The notes under the pieces: generated by a model
What the model saw: the letters and a program-made list of their open reading frames with translations, nothing else
Databases searched by the model: none
What the model was told of the DNA's origin: nothing
Part shown: piece by piece, positions 35,479 to 38,457 of the stretch
How the letters are laid out: the number at the start of each line of letters is the position of its first letter
How positions within the stretch are numbered: the first letter of the stretch is position 1
Program-made: the position numbers and the translations under genes
From: Paraflavitalea soli
Lineage (GTDB): Bacteria; Bacteroidota; Bacteroidia; Chitinophagales; Chitinophagaceae
Length of the DNA: 64,000 nucleotides
Assembly (NCBI RefSeq): GCF_003555545.1
Contig: NZ_CP032157.1
Location: 5,832,546 to 5,896,545 of the forward strand
Reading direction: 5' to 3'

Positions 35479-35895
35479 TTATTTTCTGGAATAACGGTAG
35501 CTGCCAGTCCACTTATTGGATGCACAGCTTTTAGAGGTAATCGTAATCTTTACAATACTGGGAGTTGCAGATGGGGTATTGGTAATACTGAAATTACTGA
35601 TCGCCGTTTTTACATCTGGCAGCGTTTGAGTAAAGAAGGCAGTTCCTCCTGCTTCAGGCGCGGCAGAGACCTCAATGGTAACACCTGCTGTAGGCAGGCT
35701 GGCAGAGATATTTACCTGTAAAGCGAAGTTGGGACCAGGCCCCGCAGGTTCAGTGCTGCCATTGGCCGGGGTAGTACTCACTGTCATGGCAGTCTCACTG
35801 CAATTGTTATTGCCGCCACCTCCGCCCTTTTTGCAGGAAGAAATAGTGGCCAGGAAAAACAGGGTTGTAAGGCTTAATAATACGATCTTTTTCAT
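35479..35895 (-). CDS. Small predicted lipoprotein
   Basis: 138 residues. Lipobox near residue 21 (LATISSCKKGGGGG), so it is lipid-anchored. The rest is Thr/Ser/Pro-rich and mostly beta, resembling an Ig-like or FN3-like domain: ALQVNISASLPTAGVTIEVS and SIVKITITSKSCASNKWTGS. Three Cys after the lipid Cys. No family recognised. It is a single-gene unit with its own terminator. Confidence 0.7.
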   Translation of the reverse strand: MKKIVLLSLTTLFFLATISSCKKGGGGGNNNCSETAMTVSTTPANGSTEPAGPGPNFALQVNISASLPTAGVTIEVSAAPEAGGTAFFTQTLPDVKTAISNFSITNTPSATPSIVKITITSKSCASNKWTGSYRYSRK

Positions 35896-35987
35896 GTTGC
35901 AATAGGTATTGTAATGGAACTCCCTTTAAAGCTAATATTTAATTGGCTTATTCAGCACATCAATTTTATTGTATAATGCCCGTGAGT

Positions 35988-36458
35988 TTATCCCGCCATT
36001 ACCTGCACATTACGGTTAAAGCTTTCTTCCAGGGATATAAAAGTTTCGGTACGTTCTATGCCTTTGATCTTCTGTAATTCATCGTGTAATACAAACCTCA
36101 ATTGATTAATATCACGGCAAATGATCTCCGCAAACATGCTGTAATTGCCAGTGGTATAGTTGAGGCGGGTAATTTCAGGTATTTTTTGCAACTCCTTGGC
36201 TACGGAGTCATAGAGTGAGCTTTTTTCAAGATATATTCCAATAAAAGCTATTACATCATAGCCCATTTGCTTCAGGTCCACGTTTAATTTAGTACCTTTC
36301 ACTACCCCTGCTTCCTGTAGTTTTTTGATCCGCACATGGATGGTGCCTCCCGAAACGAATAACTTCTTACCAAGGTCTGCATAAGAAATCTCGGCATTGT
36401 CCATCATCTCGTGAATGATCTGTAAATCGAGTTTATCAAGATTCAATTTAGATCCCAT
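35988..36458 (-). CDS. Lrp/AsnC-family transcriptional regulator
   Basis: 156 residues. N-terminal helix-turn-helix (LDLQIIHEMMDNAEISYADL then VSGGTIHVRIKKLQEAGVVK), followed by a RAM/ligand-binding domain (GYDVIAFIGIYLEKSSLYD, ITRLNYTTGNYSMFAEIICR). Lrp-type proteins sense amino acids and form octamers on DNA. A perfect palindrome 36-50 bases upstream (36495-36508) is a probable autoregulatory site, and it also lies between this gene and the tRNA-like RNA gene at 36613. Confidence 0.93.
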   Translation of the reverse strand: MGSKLNLDKLDLQIIHEMMDNAEISYADLGKKLFVSGGTIHVRIKKLQEAGVVKGTKLNVDLKQMGYDVIAFIGIYLEKSSLYDSVAKELQKIPEITRLNYTTGNYSMFAEIICRDINQLRFVLHDELQKIKGIERTETFISLEESFNRNVQVMAG

Positions 36459-36494
36459 TTAGCAATCGTTTTTTTGTAAAACATCAAACAATTG

Positions 36495-36508
36495 TACAAA
36501 TATTTGTA
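36495..36508. promoter_or_regulatory. Palindromic site between lrp and the tRNA-like gene
   Basis: TACAAATATTTGTA is a perfect 14-base palindrome; a second, TTGTACAA, overlaps its left end. It fits an Lrp-type box. Confidence 0.6.
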
Positions 36509-36612
36509 TAATCTCGAAACTTTCAAAATTTTTATTGAATATTTCTCAACGAATAGGCATATTTCTTTAATATTGCATTGTGATCGTTCTTTAAAACAAG
36601 GTACATAGATAC

Positions 36613-36775
36613 TGTGGAGTGATGGAACTTGGCAGACATGCCCCCTTGTCTCGGGGGCGGGGATCACAGGATAAACGTAGTGTAATGCCGTCCTTCGGGA
36701 TGACTGGGGTTGACCACCACAGATTGCGCTACAGCTAACTGCCCCGTGGAGGTTCGAATCCTCCCTCTACAGCCA
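36613..36775 (+). tRNA. Outsize tRNA-like RNA with a large structured variable arm
   Basis: The 163-base region folds as a tRNA with an insertion. Acceptor: TGTGGAG (36613-36619) pairs with CTCTACA (36765-36771, one G-U), then G73 and encoded CCA. D arm: ATG/CAT stem with a loop holding the conserved A and GG residues, in a class II (Leu-like) layout. Anticodon arm: CCCCC-TTGTCTC-GGGGG (36641-36657), anticodon GTC (Asp). T arm: GGAGG-TTCGAAT-CCTCC (36748-36764), with the invariant TTC and A. Between anticodon and T arm lies 90 bases instead of the usual 5-20. A CGGGG/CCCCG stem (36658-36662, 36742-36746) leads into a 10-bp stem (36677-36686 with 36723-36732), which forks into two hairpins, one a C(TTCG)G tetraloop. 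A strong terminator follows at 36791. Base 37 is T, which is unusual for a decoding tRNA. Function is unproven; it could be an odd tRNA-Asp, a tRNA-derived regulatory RNA or an inactive relic. Confidence 0.62.
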
Positions 36776-36790
36776 GAGCAAGCAACACAT

Positions 36791-36830
36791 AAACCCTTTC
36801 GGATTCTTCCGGGAGGGTTTCACTTTTTTT
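36791..36830 (+). terminator. Intrinsic terminator of the tRNA-like RNA
   Basis: AAACCCT / AGGGTTT (36791-36797 and 36814-36820) with inner CGGA-TTCT-TCCG, then CAC and a T7 run, 15 bases after the encoded CCA. Confidence 0.88.
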
Positions 36831-37126
36831 AATCCTCTCCCCACTCTTTTTAATCTTTCCCATTTGGGTAAAATACCTTCTCTTTTTTATCTTTATTACC
36901 TCTACTATTTAATTGCTCCTTCTACTTTGCCAACGGATTCTCCGGTATCCTCCTACTCCAATTCCTGATCTTTCTTCTTTATTTCCTCCTGATCCCCAGG
37001 CTGGCATTCGTGTGCCTTGGTTTACACATATTGCTCATAATTAAATAGCTTATGAAGGTTTGCTAATTTAAAATAATAGTTAACTTAGAACATCCTATTA
37101 TTATCAATACCTTAAACCTTTCATTC
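36831..37126. other. Pyrimidine-rich non-coding stretch
   Basis: From about 36825 to 36990 the plus strand is strongly C/T-rich with few G residues. No gene seen. The last 60 bases are A/T-rich and precede the lipoprotein gene. Confidence 0.4.
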
Positions 37127-37645
37127 ATGAAATCATTAAACCTTCTTCGTTTGGCAGCTTTATCCGCTGTCCTGTTTTCGCTGTCCTGTAAAAAAAGGGG
37201 GCAATTTGAAGTATACTGCAAGATCGAACAAATCATTAGTAAGTATCAGTATAATCCATCCTACCCTGTGGAAACCAATGTATCAACTTTCACACACAAT
37301 GCATGGGGCGACCCGGTAAGCATTATCCAAAGTAACCCCCAGATGGGTATTCCTCAATCCGTAATGGAGAAGGGCTATAGCTACGATGCCAATGACAACC
37401 TCATCAGGTCGAACGTAACCTATGACAACAAGATCAACTTCCTCCGCACCAGCCTGGTACTGGCTTTCATGATGCGCGATTACAGCAAGAATAATTATCT
37501 GACAGCGCTCAGTTATAACAGCAAAAACCTGCCCACTACTTATCCTGTATCAACGATGACCTCTGGTGGCGGACCCGTATTTTTCTATAACTCAGCTGAG
37601 GAGATCAAATACACCTGCGACAACAATAGCAACGATTTAGATTAA
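37127..37645 (+). CDS. Predicted lipoprotein of unknown function
   Basis: 172 residues, lipobox near residue 21 (VLFSLSCKK). The body reads like the start of proteins built from YD/RHS-like or DUF4595-like sheets: GYSYDANDNLIRSNVTYDN and LTALSYNSKNLPTTYPV. Each has the Y-(D/N)-x-(N/K)-(D/N)-N-L-I/P pattern of short beta hairpins. At 172 residues it is shorter than relatives, and it ends in DNNSNDLD without a closing domain, so it could be a truncated member. Its terminator is at 37682-37722. Confidence 0.6.
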   Translation: MKSLNLLRLAALSAVLFSLSCKKRGQFEVYCKIEQIISKYQYNPSYPVETNVSTFTHNAWGDPVSIIQSNPQMGIPQSVMEKGYSYDANDNLIRSNVTYDNKINFLRTSLVLAFMMRDYSKNNYLTALSYNSKNLPTTYPVSTMTSGGGPVFFYNSAEEIKYTCDNNSNDLD

Positions 37646-37681
37646 GAATCCGTAGCCCCTTGGGCACCTCTGCGGCCGGCA

Positions 37682-37722
37682 AAGCCCGTTGTAAAAGAGT
37701 TTCTCTTTTCAGCGGGTTTTTT
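37682..37722 (+). terminator. Intrinsic terminator before trmB
   Basis: AAGCCCGTTG / CAGCGGGTTT (two G-U pairs) with inner AAAAGAG-TTT-CTCTTTT, ending in a T6 run. Confidence 0.85.
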
Positions 37723-37730
37723 GATTTCGC

Positions 37731-37738
37731 TACTTTTG
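37731..37738 (+). promoter_or_regulatory. -7 promoter box of trmB
   Basis: TACTTTTG, an exact TAnnTTTG match, ending 5 bases before the trmB ATG at 37744. Confidence 0.6.
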
Positions 37739-37743
37739 CGCCC

Positions 37744-38457
37744 ATGGGCCATAAGAAGTTAATACGCTTTGCAGAAATGACCACCTTCCCCAATGTGCTG
37801 CAATACCCGGAAAATATGCCCGGGAAGTGGAAGGATTTTTTCCATAATGATAACCCACTGGTGCTGGAACTCGCCTGTGGTAAAGGGGAGTATGCGGTAG
37901 GATTGGGCAGATTATTCCCGGATAAAAATTTTCTGGGGATCGATCTCAAAGGCAATCGCATCTGGGTGGGGGCTAAAAAAGCACTACAGGAAAATCTCAC
38001 GAATGTGGCATTTCTGCGGACACAGATCGACAAGATCGCCAGCTATTTTGCACCCGGCGAAGTGTCGGAGATCTGGATCACCTTCCCCGATCCCCAATTG
38101 CGTACAGGCAAAGCTAAGAAGCGGCTTACACATCCCAAATTCCTGCGGATGTACCAACAAATACTGGCCCCGGGAGGTTATATTAACCTGAAAACAGATT
38201 CGCCGAGTTTATACAGGTTCACCAAATGGGTCATCGACCTGCATGAGTTGCCGTTGGTACAGGATATGGACGATGTATACGCCAATAAGGATATCAGTGA
38301 AACGCTGAAGATCAAAACGCATTACGAAAGCCTGGACATAGCACAGAGTAACCGGATACATTATTTACAGTTCAGCCTGCCGACTACACCCTTGCCCGAT
38401 AAAAATGAAGCCTTAAAAGAATTGCTACTTGAAGAAGGAACTGATAGAAGGAGTTGA
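37744..38457 (+). CDS. trmB: tRNA (guanine-N7-)-methyltransferase
   Basis: Methylates G46 in the variable loop of tRNAs using SAM. 237 residues from the ATG at 37744; the open frame to 37660 crosses a terminator and promoter and is not used. The SAM loop is VLELACGKGEYAVGLGRL near residue 40; GIDLKGNRIWVGAKKAL and the signature ITFPDPQLRTGKAKKRL (the family's FPDPWPK region) follow. Given its target, it is notable that an outsize variable-arm tRNA-like RNA lies about 1 kb upstream. The DUF5522 gene overlaps its end. Confidence 0.94.
   Translation: MGHKKLIRFAEMTTFPNVLQYPENMPGKWKDFFHNDNPLVLELACGKGEYAVGLGRLFPDKNFLGIDLKGNRIWVGAKKALQENLTNVAFLRTQIDKIASYFAPGEVSEIWITFPDPQLRTGKAKKRLTHPKFLRMYQQILAPGGYINLKTDSPSLYRFTKWVIDLHELPLVQDMDDVYANKDISETLKIKTHYESLDIAQSNRIHYLQFSLPTTPLPDKNEALKELLLEEGTDRRS

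Follow-up and report, generated by a model that had tools for sequence, protein, structure and literature searches.

A family of conserved tRNA-like RNAs in Bacteroidota, encoded beside an AsnC-type regulator and possibly serving as a carrier for asparagine synthesis

In Deinococcus, Thermus and Bdellovibrio, asparagine is made on tRNA-Asn by AspRS and GatCAB, the latter amidating Asp carried on an RNA that begins with a U1-A72 pair. The Bdellovibrio-type system includes both AsnRS and GatCAB, and the passages of PMC4206432 drawn on here describe Bdellovibrio as lacking AsnA and AsnB. In E. coli, asnC lies divergent from asnA, and AsnC activates asnA, less so when asparagine is present (PMC8707732, as excerpted). 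The determinants that such RNAs carry are set out in the excerpts of PMC9976931: G73, G34, U35, C36 and C38 are strong aspartate determinants and G2-C71 is a minor one; U1-A72 confers amidation of Asp-tRNA-Asn by GatCAB, and G1-C72 and U20a prevent amidation in tRNA-Asp. According to the same source, G1-C72 is strictly conserved in bacterial tRNA-Asp and helps AspRS to place the 3′ end.

We analysed a 64,000-nt stretch of DNA (the window), in which a complete tRNA-like cloverleaf lies at 36613-36775 on the plus strand, with an 87-nt domain (36659-36745) separating the anticodon and T arms. All arms, G73, the GUC triplet and an encoded CCA are there as the original prediction had it. ARAGORN called no tRNA within the window, a comparison of 35500-38000 with Rfam (4,227 models) gave no match at E ≤ 1, and the genome itself holds one single match to the RNA. 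The features are as follows, with row counts taken from an alignment of 79 long members (A1) and copy counts from 157 parsed copies.

35988-36458, minus strand: gene for an AsnC-type regulator, oriented divergently to the RNA (PDB 2cg4, Pfam, NCBIfam)
36613-36775, plus strand: tRNA-like RNA, 161 nt up to C74, the CA of CCA being encoded by chance here
36613-36619 pairing with 36765-36771, plus strand: acceptor stem, with U1 of U1-A72 and G2 of G2-C71 on the 5′ strand
36622-36639, plus strand: tRNA-Leu-like D arm, AUG/CAU stem, the stem invariant in the 79 members of A1
36641-36657, plus strand: anticodon arm, loop UUGUCUC at 36646-36652
36648-36650, plus strand: GUC anticodon triplet, AspRS determinants according to the excerpts of PMC9976931
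36659-36662 with 36742-36745, plus strand: basal stem of the variable arm, GGGG/CCCC, 4 bp; two of its pairs show two-sided changes, in 26 and 8 rows
36667-36669 with 36739-36741, plus strand: second variable-arm stem, CAG/CUG, 3 bp; two-sided changes in 13 and 11 rows
36670-36675, plus strand: conserved internal-loop strand GAUAAA, facing GCUAA at 36734-36738; retained, by eye, in many short forms
36677-36686 with 36723-36732, plus strand: 10-bp stem; two-sided changes at 6 of 9 counted pairs
36689-36702, plus strand: fork hairpin 1, with a UUCG loop here; variable in sequence and length in A1 and outside the counted structure
36705-36719, plus strand: fork hairpin 2, with the conserved loop GRUYGACCA; one of its three pairs does not form in 29 of 77 rows
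36748-36764, plus strand: T arm GGAGG-UUCGAAU-CCUCC; one pair shows two-sided changes, in 27 rows
36765-36773, plus strand: acceptor 3′ strand, G73 and C74, the last two each in 157/157 parsed copies
36791-36830, plus strand: intrinsic-terminator-like hairpin (36791-36820) and T run; one found against 0.5 expected from shuffles

The 10-bp stem and the UUCG hairpin are present as predicted. There is a stem where a 5-bp one had been drawn, but it is better read as the 4-bp GGGG/CCCC stem, a 4-nt bulge and the 3-bp CAG/CUG stem. The folding energy is unremarkable (MFE z = -0.94; 37 of 200 shuffles fold equally well), and thermodynamic significance by itself was discarded as proof of the fold. Comparison decides the matter instead. 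Across the 3,079 cells of A1, the counted structure is paired in 98.1%, compared with 45.7-55.1% in slid controls; two-sided changes occupy 265 cells (77.4 ± 13.6 in shuffles) and the covariation score is 0.273 (shuffles 0.130 ± 0.005). The number of pairs with a two-sided change, 14, is less striking, since shuffles give 11.9 ± 1.1 and 37 of 500 reach 14. Compensation was seen in the acceptor (G6-C67 becomes A-U in 21 rows), in the T stem and, within the variable arm, in both basal stems, the 10-bp stem and fork hairpin 2. The D stem is uninformative because it is constant throughout A1; among distant family members its pair 10-25 differs. The fold is thus backed by compensatory changes, and the argument that such ordered pairing implies selection stands on comparison, not on thermodynamics.

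The variable arm differs widely in length across the family. Short members (108-133 nt) have no fork, keep a basal stem and often also the GAUAAA/CUAA internal loop, and the UUCG hairpin belongs to the variable portion of the inserted domain. As many members are without it, the forked domain does not define the family, although it had been read that way. GACCAC is present in 187 of 289 distinct copies, and the GRUYGACCA loop of fork hairpin 2 is nearly invariant wherever a fork exists. Pairing of the anticodon with the GAC of this loop was considered and dropped, as it amounts to just 3 bp and fork-less members keep GUC.

tmRNA also combines tRNA-like ends with a large inserted domain. Unlike tmRNA, the RNA keeps its D and anticodon arms and has no Rfam match, and a tmRNA-like tag frame was rejected: the UAA of GCUAAC lies in an internal loop that short forms retain too, and no conserved frame was recognised by eye.

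Homologues abound. In blastn against 195 genomes of the family, 162 gave a match at E ≤ 1 and 136 had a best E of 1e-9 or less. A regular expression recovered 102 copies in 89 of 90 loci (L001-L090; the L007 copy was bounded wrongly and the L010 copy is cut by a contig end), and the locus that it missed, L079, was found by nhmmer. A covariance model (R1), as the original prediction had proposed, was run with strict filters on 149 order-level and 295 class-level genomes, and found homologues beyond Chitinophagaceae; among the matches listed, 49 of the 295 class genomes carry the RNA. The hits listed show a gap between members (at least 76.8 bits, 108-206 nt) and weaker hits of about 63 bits or less, which were not counted as members. 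These are mostly 72-90 nt and include ordinary tRNAs. Those read were a tRNA-Leu(GAG) of 55.9 bits (L157), a tRNA-Tyr and a tRNA-Thr (L118); L136, L137 and L323 hold altered relatives. A pattern scan of named genomes (at least 120 stretches; organism names are titles as deposited) added Chitinophaga, Terrimonas, Niabella, Dyadobacter, Spirosoma, Cyclobacterium, Algoriphagus, Belliella, Fulvivirga, Marinoscillum and Saprospiraceae, together with a few Flavobacteriales MAGs and one Ignavibacteriales MAG; a match in an actinobacterium (Sporichthyaceae, L206) was taken as a chance one. With a second expression, we collected 318 copies in 261 of 277 loci, some of which repeat one genome; 289 copies are distinct and span 108-200 nt. 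In L118, L147, L148 and L153, three or four similar copies stand in tandem.

These RNAs therefore form a conserved family under selection, present in many environmental Bacteroidota and apparently undescribed; among open-licence PMC papers, no title describing such an RNA was found. A decayed copy of a normal-size tRNA-Asp is rejected by the conserved homologues, by the compensatory changes and by the ordinary tRNA-Asp(GUC) of the same genome, which differs throughout. One locus (L137, 3001-3077, minus strand, genome G382) holds a 77-nt sequence, tRNA-like and of normal size, whose acceptor and D arm are those of the family and whose anticodon is AUC; ARAGORN labels it tRNA-Asp(atc), and G382 has asnA.

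To see which positions are fixed, we counted bases in 159 copies chosen without condition on these positions, of which 2 were unparsable; the low-scoring relatives in L136, L137 and L323, all altered in the anticodon arm, lie outside the 157 that were parsed. U1-A72, G2-C71, U35, C36, G73 and C74 are found in 157/157 and G34 and C38 in 156/157, although these are not independent counts because the copies are related. Set against the determinants in the PMC9976931 excerpts, the invariants indicate that the RNA unites the aspartate-charging set with the amidation determinant. The G1-C72 pair of bacterial tRNA-Asp is absent, U1-A72 standing in its place in every parsed copy, and the D loop of A1 members (GGCAGAC) has no U at the likely place of U20a, in our inferred numbering. 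Position 33, where decoding requires U, is T in 103 copies (the window copy among them), C in 45 and G in 9; position 37 is T in 147, C in 6 and G in 4, so the U noted there in place of a purine is typical. The RNA thus shares G73, G34, U35, C36, C38 and G2-C71 with bacterial tRNA-Asp but differs from it in U1-A72, a long variable arm, the unkept U33, a mostly U37 and a D arm like that of tRNA-Leu. With tRNA-Leu it shares this D arm and the class II layout, whereas G73, the anticodon, the acceptor stem and the variable-arm domain differ. The predicted mix of Leu-like and Asp-like parts is therefore real.

The 3′ end resembles that of ordinary tRNAs. An encoded GCCA occurs in just 8 of 100 readable copies, so the CCA noted in the window copy is not a family trait. 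All 16 ordinary Bacteroidota tRNAs read (19 called, less the L137 family relic and two of the actinobacterial L206) likewise encode only N73-C74, and three tRNA-Asn genes do encode CCA. Hence the CCA of the RNA can be completed as for ordinary tRNAs. Directly before U1 stands a conserved A-Y-A-Y, with A at -4 in 216 and at -2 in 224 of 240 upstream loci. This leader had prompted an 8-bp acceptor model (Y-1 pairing with G73, and C74 as discriminator), which was dropped because ordinary tRNAs encode only N73-C74.

Of the marks of a decoding tRNA, then, the N73-C74 end is kept, U33 is not kept family-wide and a purine at 37 is mostly absent. A genuine but odd decoding tRNA-Asp, for which GUC, G73 and the T still found at position 33 in 103 copies could be cited, seems to us highly improbable: position 33 is C or G in 54/157 copies and 37 a pyrimidine in 153/157, no ARAGORN call overlaps any family copy, and an ordinary tRNA-Asp(GUC) was found in 17 of 19 genomes, including that of the window. 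We give as little credence to a substrate of SerRS, an enzyme that does not read the anticodon. G73 and the long class II variable arm are serine-like, but positions 34, 35, 36 and 38 are nearly fixed and the length of the variable arm varies widely. The RNA is probably aminoacylated, yet not a routine decoding tRNA, much as the original prediction had suggested; the prediction did not foresee U1-A72, the link with AsnC and asparagine synthetases, or a spread outside Chitinophagaceae.

The regulator gene beside the RNA belongs to the AsnC type. In the PDB, its product comes closest to E. coli AsnC (2cg4; E = 4.6e-35, 124 bits), with the next match at 74, 50 bits lower. Pfam finds an HTH and an Lrp/AsnC ligand domain, both over cut-off, and the best NCBIfam model is AsnC, at 162.6 bits under a cut-off of 227. 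A homologue lies divergently upstream of the RNA in 185 of 249 loci (first ORF in 167, second in 18), some of the other 64 being without upstream sequence; the next commonest neighbour occurs in 44 of 249. In the class sample, an orthologue (E ≤ 1e-42) is found in 49/49 genomes with the RNA and 20/246 without; in the former it lies beside the RNA in 32, across a contig edge in 1 and on another contig in 16. In genome G481 (L136/L294), an AsnC-type gene with five in-frame stops adjoins a diverged family RNA of 63 bits, and the two seem to decay together.

Next, we examined the divergent side of the regulator in the 20 genomes that have it without the RNA. In 5 of them an asparagine synthetase gene takes the RNA's place: asnB in L322, L331 and L335, and an archaeal-type synthetase in L327 and L328 (all by NCBIfam over cut-off, L328 also by PDB 3p8t/1nnh). 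A 24-bit relative without the D arm and GUC anticodon arm is found in L323 (G451) and an odd tRNA-like sequence in L326 (G487); in the remaining 13, neither a synthetase nor a tRNA-like sequence was recognised there. The L326 sequence has the acceptor GTTTGA/TCAAAC and the T arm CGGGTTCGAGTCCGG, and gives no R1 match. In L319, L324 and L332 (family f61), a short stretch beside the AsnC-type gene, at the position expected for the RNA, has a shared word, TTATAATTGGTTRG, followed by a terminator-like hairpin, as seen by eye, and is possibly a remnant.

Synthetase content was then profiled in 80 genomes: 43 with the RNA and at least 90% complete, the 20 with the regulator alone, and 17 with neither, chosen from those at hand. 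Six less complete genomes with the RNA and G555 were left out, and G481, with its broken regulator, was put in. In these three groups respectively, asnB (one query, from L331, E ≤ 1e-60) was detected in 0/43, 9/20 and 0/17, asnA in 1/43, 3/20 and 0/17, an archaeal-type synthetase in 0/43, 2/20 and 0/17, and any synthetase in 1/43, 12/20 and 0/17; eight first-look asnB candidates in the window's genome fell short of the E threshold. GatCAB, read from gatB alone, is present in 43/43, 13/20 and 13/17 (26/37 of those lacking the RNA). The one genome with both the RNA and a synthetase, G509 (asnA), has C at position 34 (L133). With this RNA counted as not intact, an intact RNA and a detected synthetase never co-occur in this sample (0/42 with a synthetase, compared with 13/38 of the others; Fisher P = 1.7e-5), and P = 3.8e-4 if it is counted as present; these P values ignore shared ancestry, yet family f61 contains both states. 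Other synthetase genomes with altered-looking traces are G382 (asnA; same family as G509), with the 77-nt AUC form elsewhere in its genome, and G451 (asnB), whose trace is the 24-bit relative above. Neither an intact RNA nor a detected synthetase was found in 25/80 genomes (8/20 with the regulator and 17/17 without, gatB being present in 13 of those 17), so an asparagine gap is not unique to genomes with the RNA. AsnRS was confirmed in 10/10 RNA-bearing genomes scanned, three from partial frames (19 such stretches were fetched).

An RNA that stands in a synthetase's place and bears marks for both Asp loading and amidation may be a tool for making an amino acid and not for decoding. We favour, with some confidence, a non-decoding carrier for RNA-dependent asparagine synthesis by AspRS and GatCAB under AsnC control. 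AspRS would charge the RNA with Asp through G73, G34, U35, C36, C38 and G2-C71, and GatCAB would recognise U1-A72 and amidate the Asp to Asn. Asn would then be released by hydrolysis for use by AsnRS and metabolism, with the AsnC-type regulator controlling the RNA gene. Were Asn on an RNA with a GUC anticodon to enter the ribosome, it would be placed at Asp codons; such misreading may be prevented by the relaxation at position 33, by U37 and by the bulk of the variable arm. As in the Bdellovibrio-type system, AsnRS and GatCAB (here by gatB) are present and Asp on a U1-A72 RNA would be amidated; in contrast to that system, the carrier would not be tRNA-Asn (GUU) but an RNA with GUC (156/157), a relaxed U33, a long variable arm and its own AsnC-linked gene. 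The arrangement recalls asnC-asnA of E. coli, where an AsnC-type regulator is likewise divergent from an asparagine-making unit (PMC8707732, as excerpted), except that the unit here would be an RNA gene and not a synthetase gene.

Some points weigh against such a carrier. It lacks G1-C72, which in the PMC9976931 excerpts helps AspRS to place the 3′ end, its long variable arm might stand in the way of AspRS or GatCAB, and it lies on a different contig from the regulator in 16 of the 49 class genomes. It nevertheless fits the facts better than any rival considered. A charged RNA from which Asp or Asn passes to some acceptor outside the ribosome (for instance a lipid, the cell wall or a peptide), AsnC then serving amino-acid economy, would account for charging marks retained while U33 is relaxed. 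We regard it as distinctly improbable: no transferase is prominent when the sequences of the common neighbour clusters are inspected, a minority of which were also compared with a library, and the mutual exclusion with asparagine synthetases would go unexplained.

A regulatory RNA has somewhat more in its favour, though we still consider it unlikely. An AsnC-controlled mimic of tRNA-Asp would titrate or report on AspRS, and the Bdellovibrio route, in which a non-discriminating AspRS and GatCAB act on tRNA-Asn, would supply the asparagine. The AsnC linkage suits this explanation, and PMC4206432, as excerpted, lists Bacteroidetes among 18 genera that have AsnRS, GlnRS and GatCAB without an asparagine synthetase and suggests synthesis on tRNA-Asn; PMC7311316, as excerpted, makes no mention of an asparagine gap in Echinicola or Pedobacter. 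We read tRNA-Asn from 40 of 43 loci. Its first base is U1 in 25 of 29 genomes with the RNA and 10 of 11 without, and in those 25 it could serve GatCAB if AspRS were non-discriminating. It begins with G1 in G211, G224, G500 and G509; in the first three, none of which has a detected synthetase, it thus lacks U1, one half of the pair that GatCAB recognises. As a way to exclude synthesis on tRNA-Asn, the first base pair therefore works in these three genomes but fails in 25 of 29, and was abandoned as a general argument. A mimic would also leave unexplained the invariant U1-A72 in an RNA of Asp identity and the synthetase genes beside AsnC in some RNA-less relatives.

If the RNA is indeed a carrier, it could account for the asparagine supply of Bacteroidota that have AsnRS and gatB but in which no synthetase is recognised, and would be an RNA whose only use is as a metabolic carrier. 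The fuller claim, that a relative of tRNA has left translation to serve solely as coenzyme for a free amino acid, replacing the synthetase gene beside AsnC and providing an RNA-based asparagine route across a large part of Bacteroidota, we put only slightly above an even chance. The family would also offer a natural experiment on charging and amidation features versus decoding features, because the former look frozen and the latter drift. The residue at H31 of the AspRS N-terminal motif, which we take to be a site bearing on tRNA discrimination, was considered and set aside as an argument; the six AspRS read have F there in four genomes with the RNA and L in two without it.
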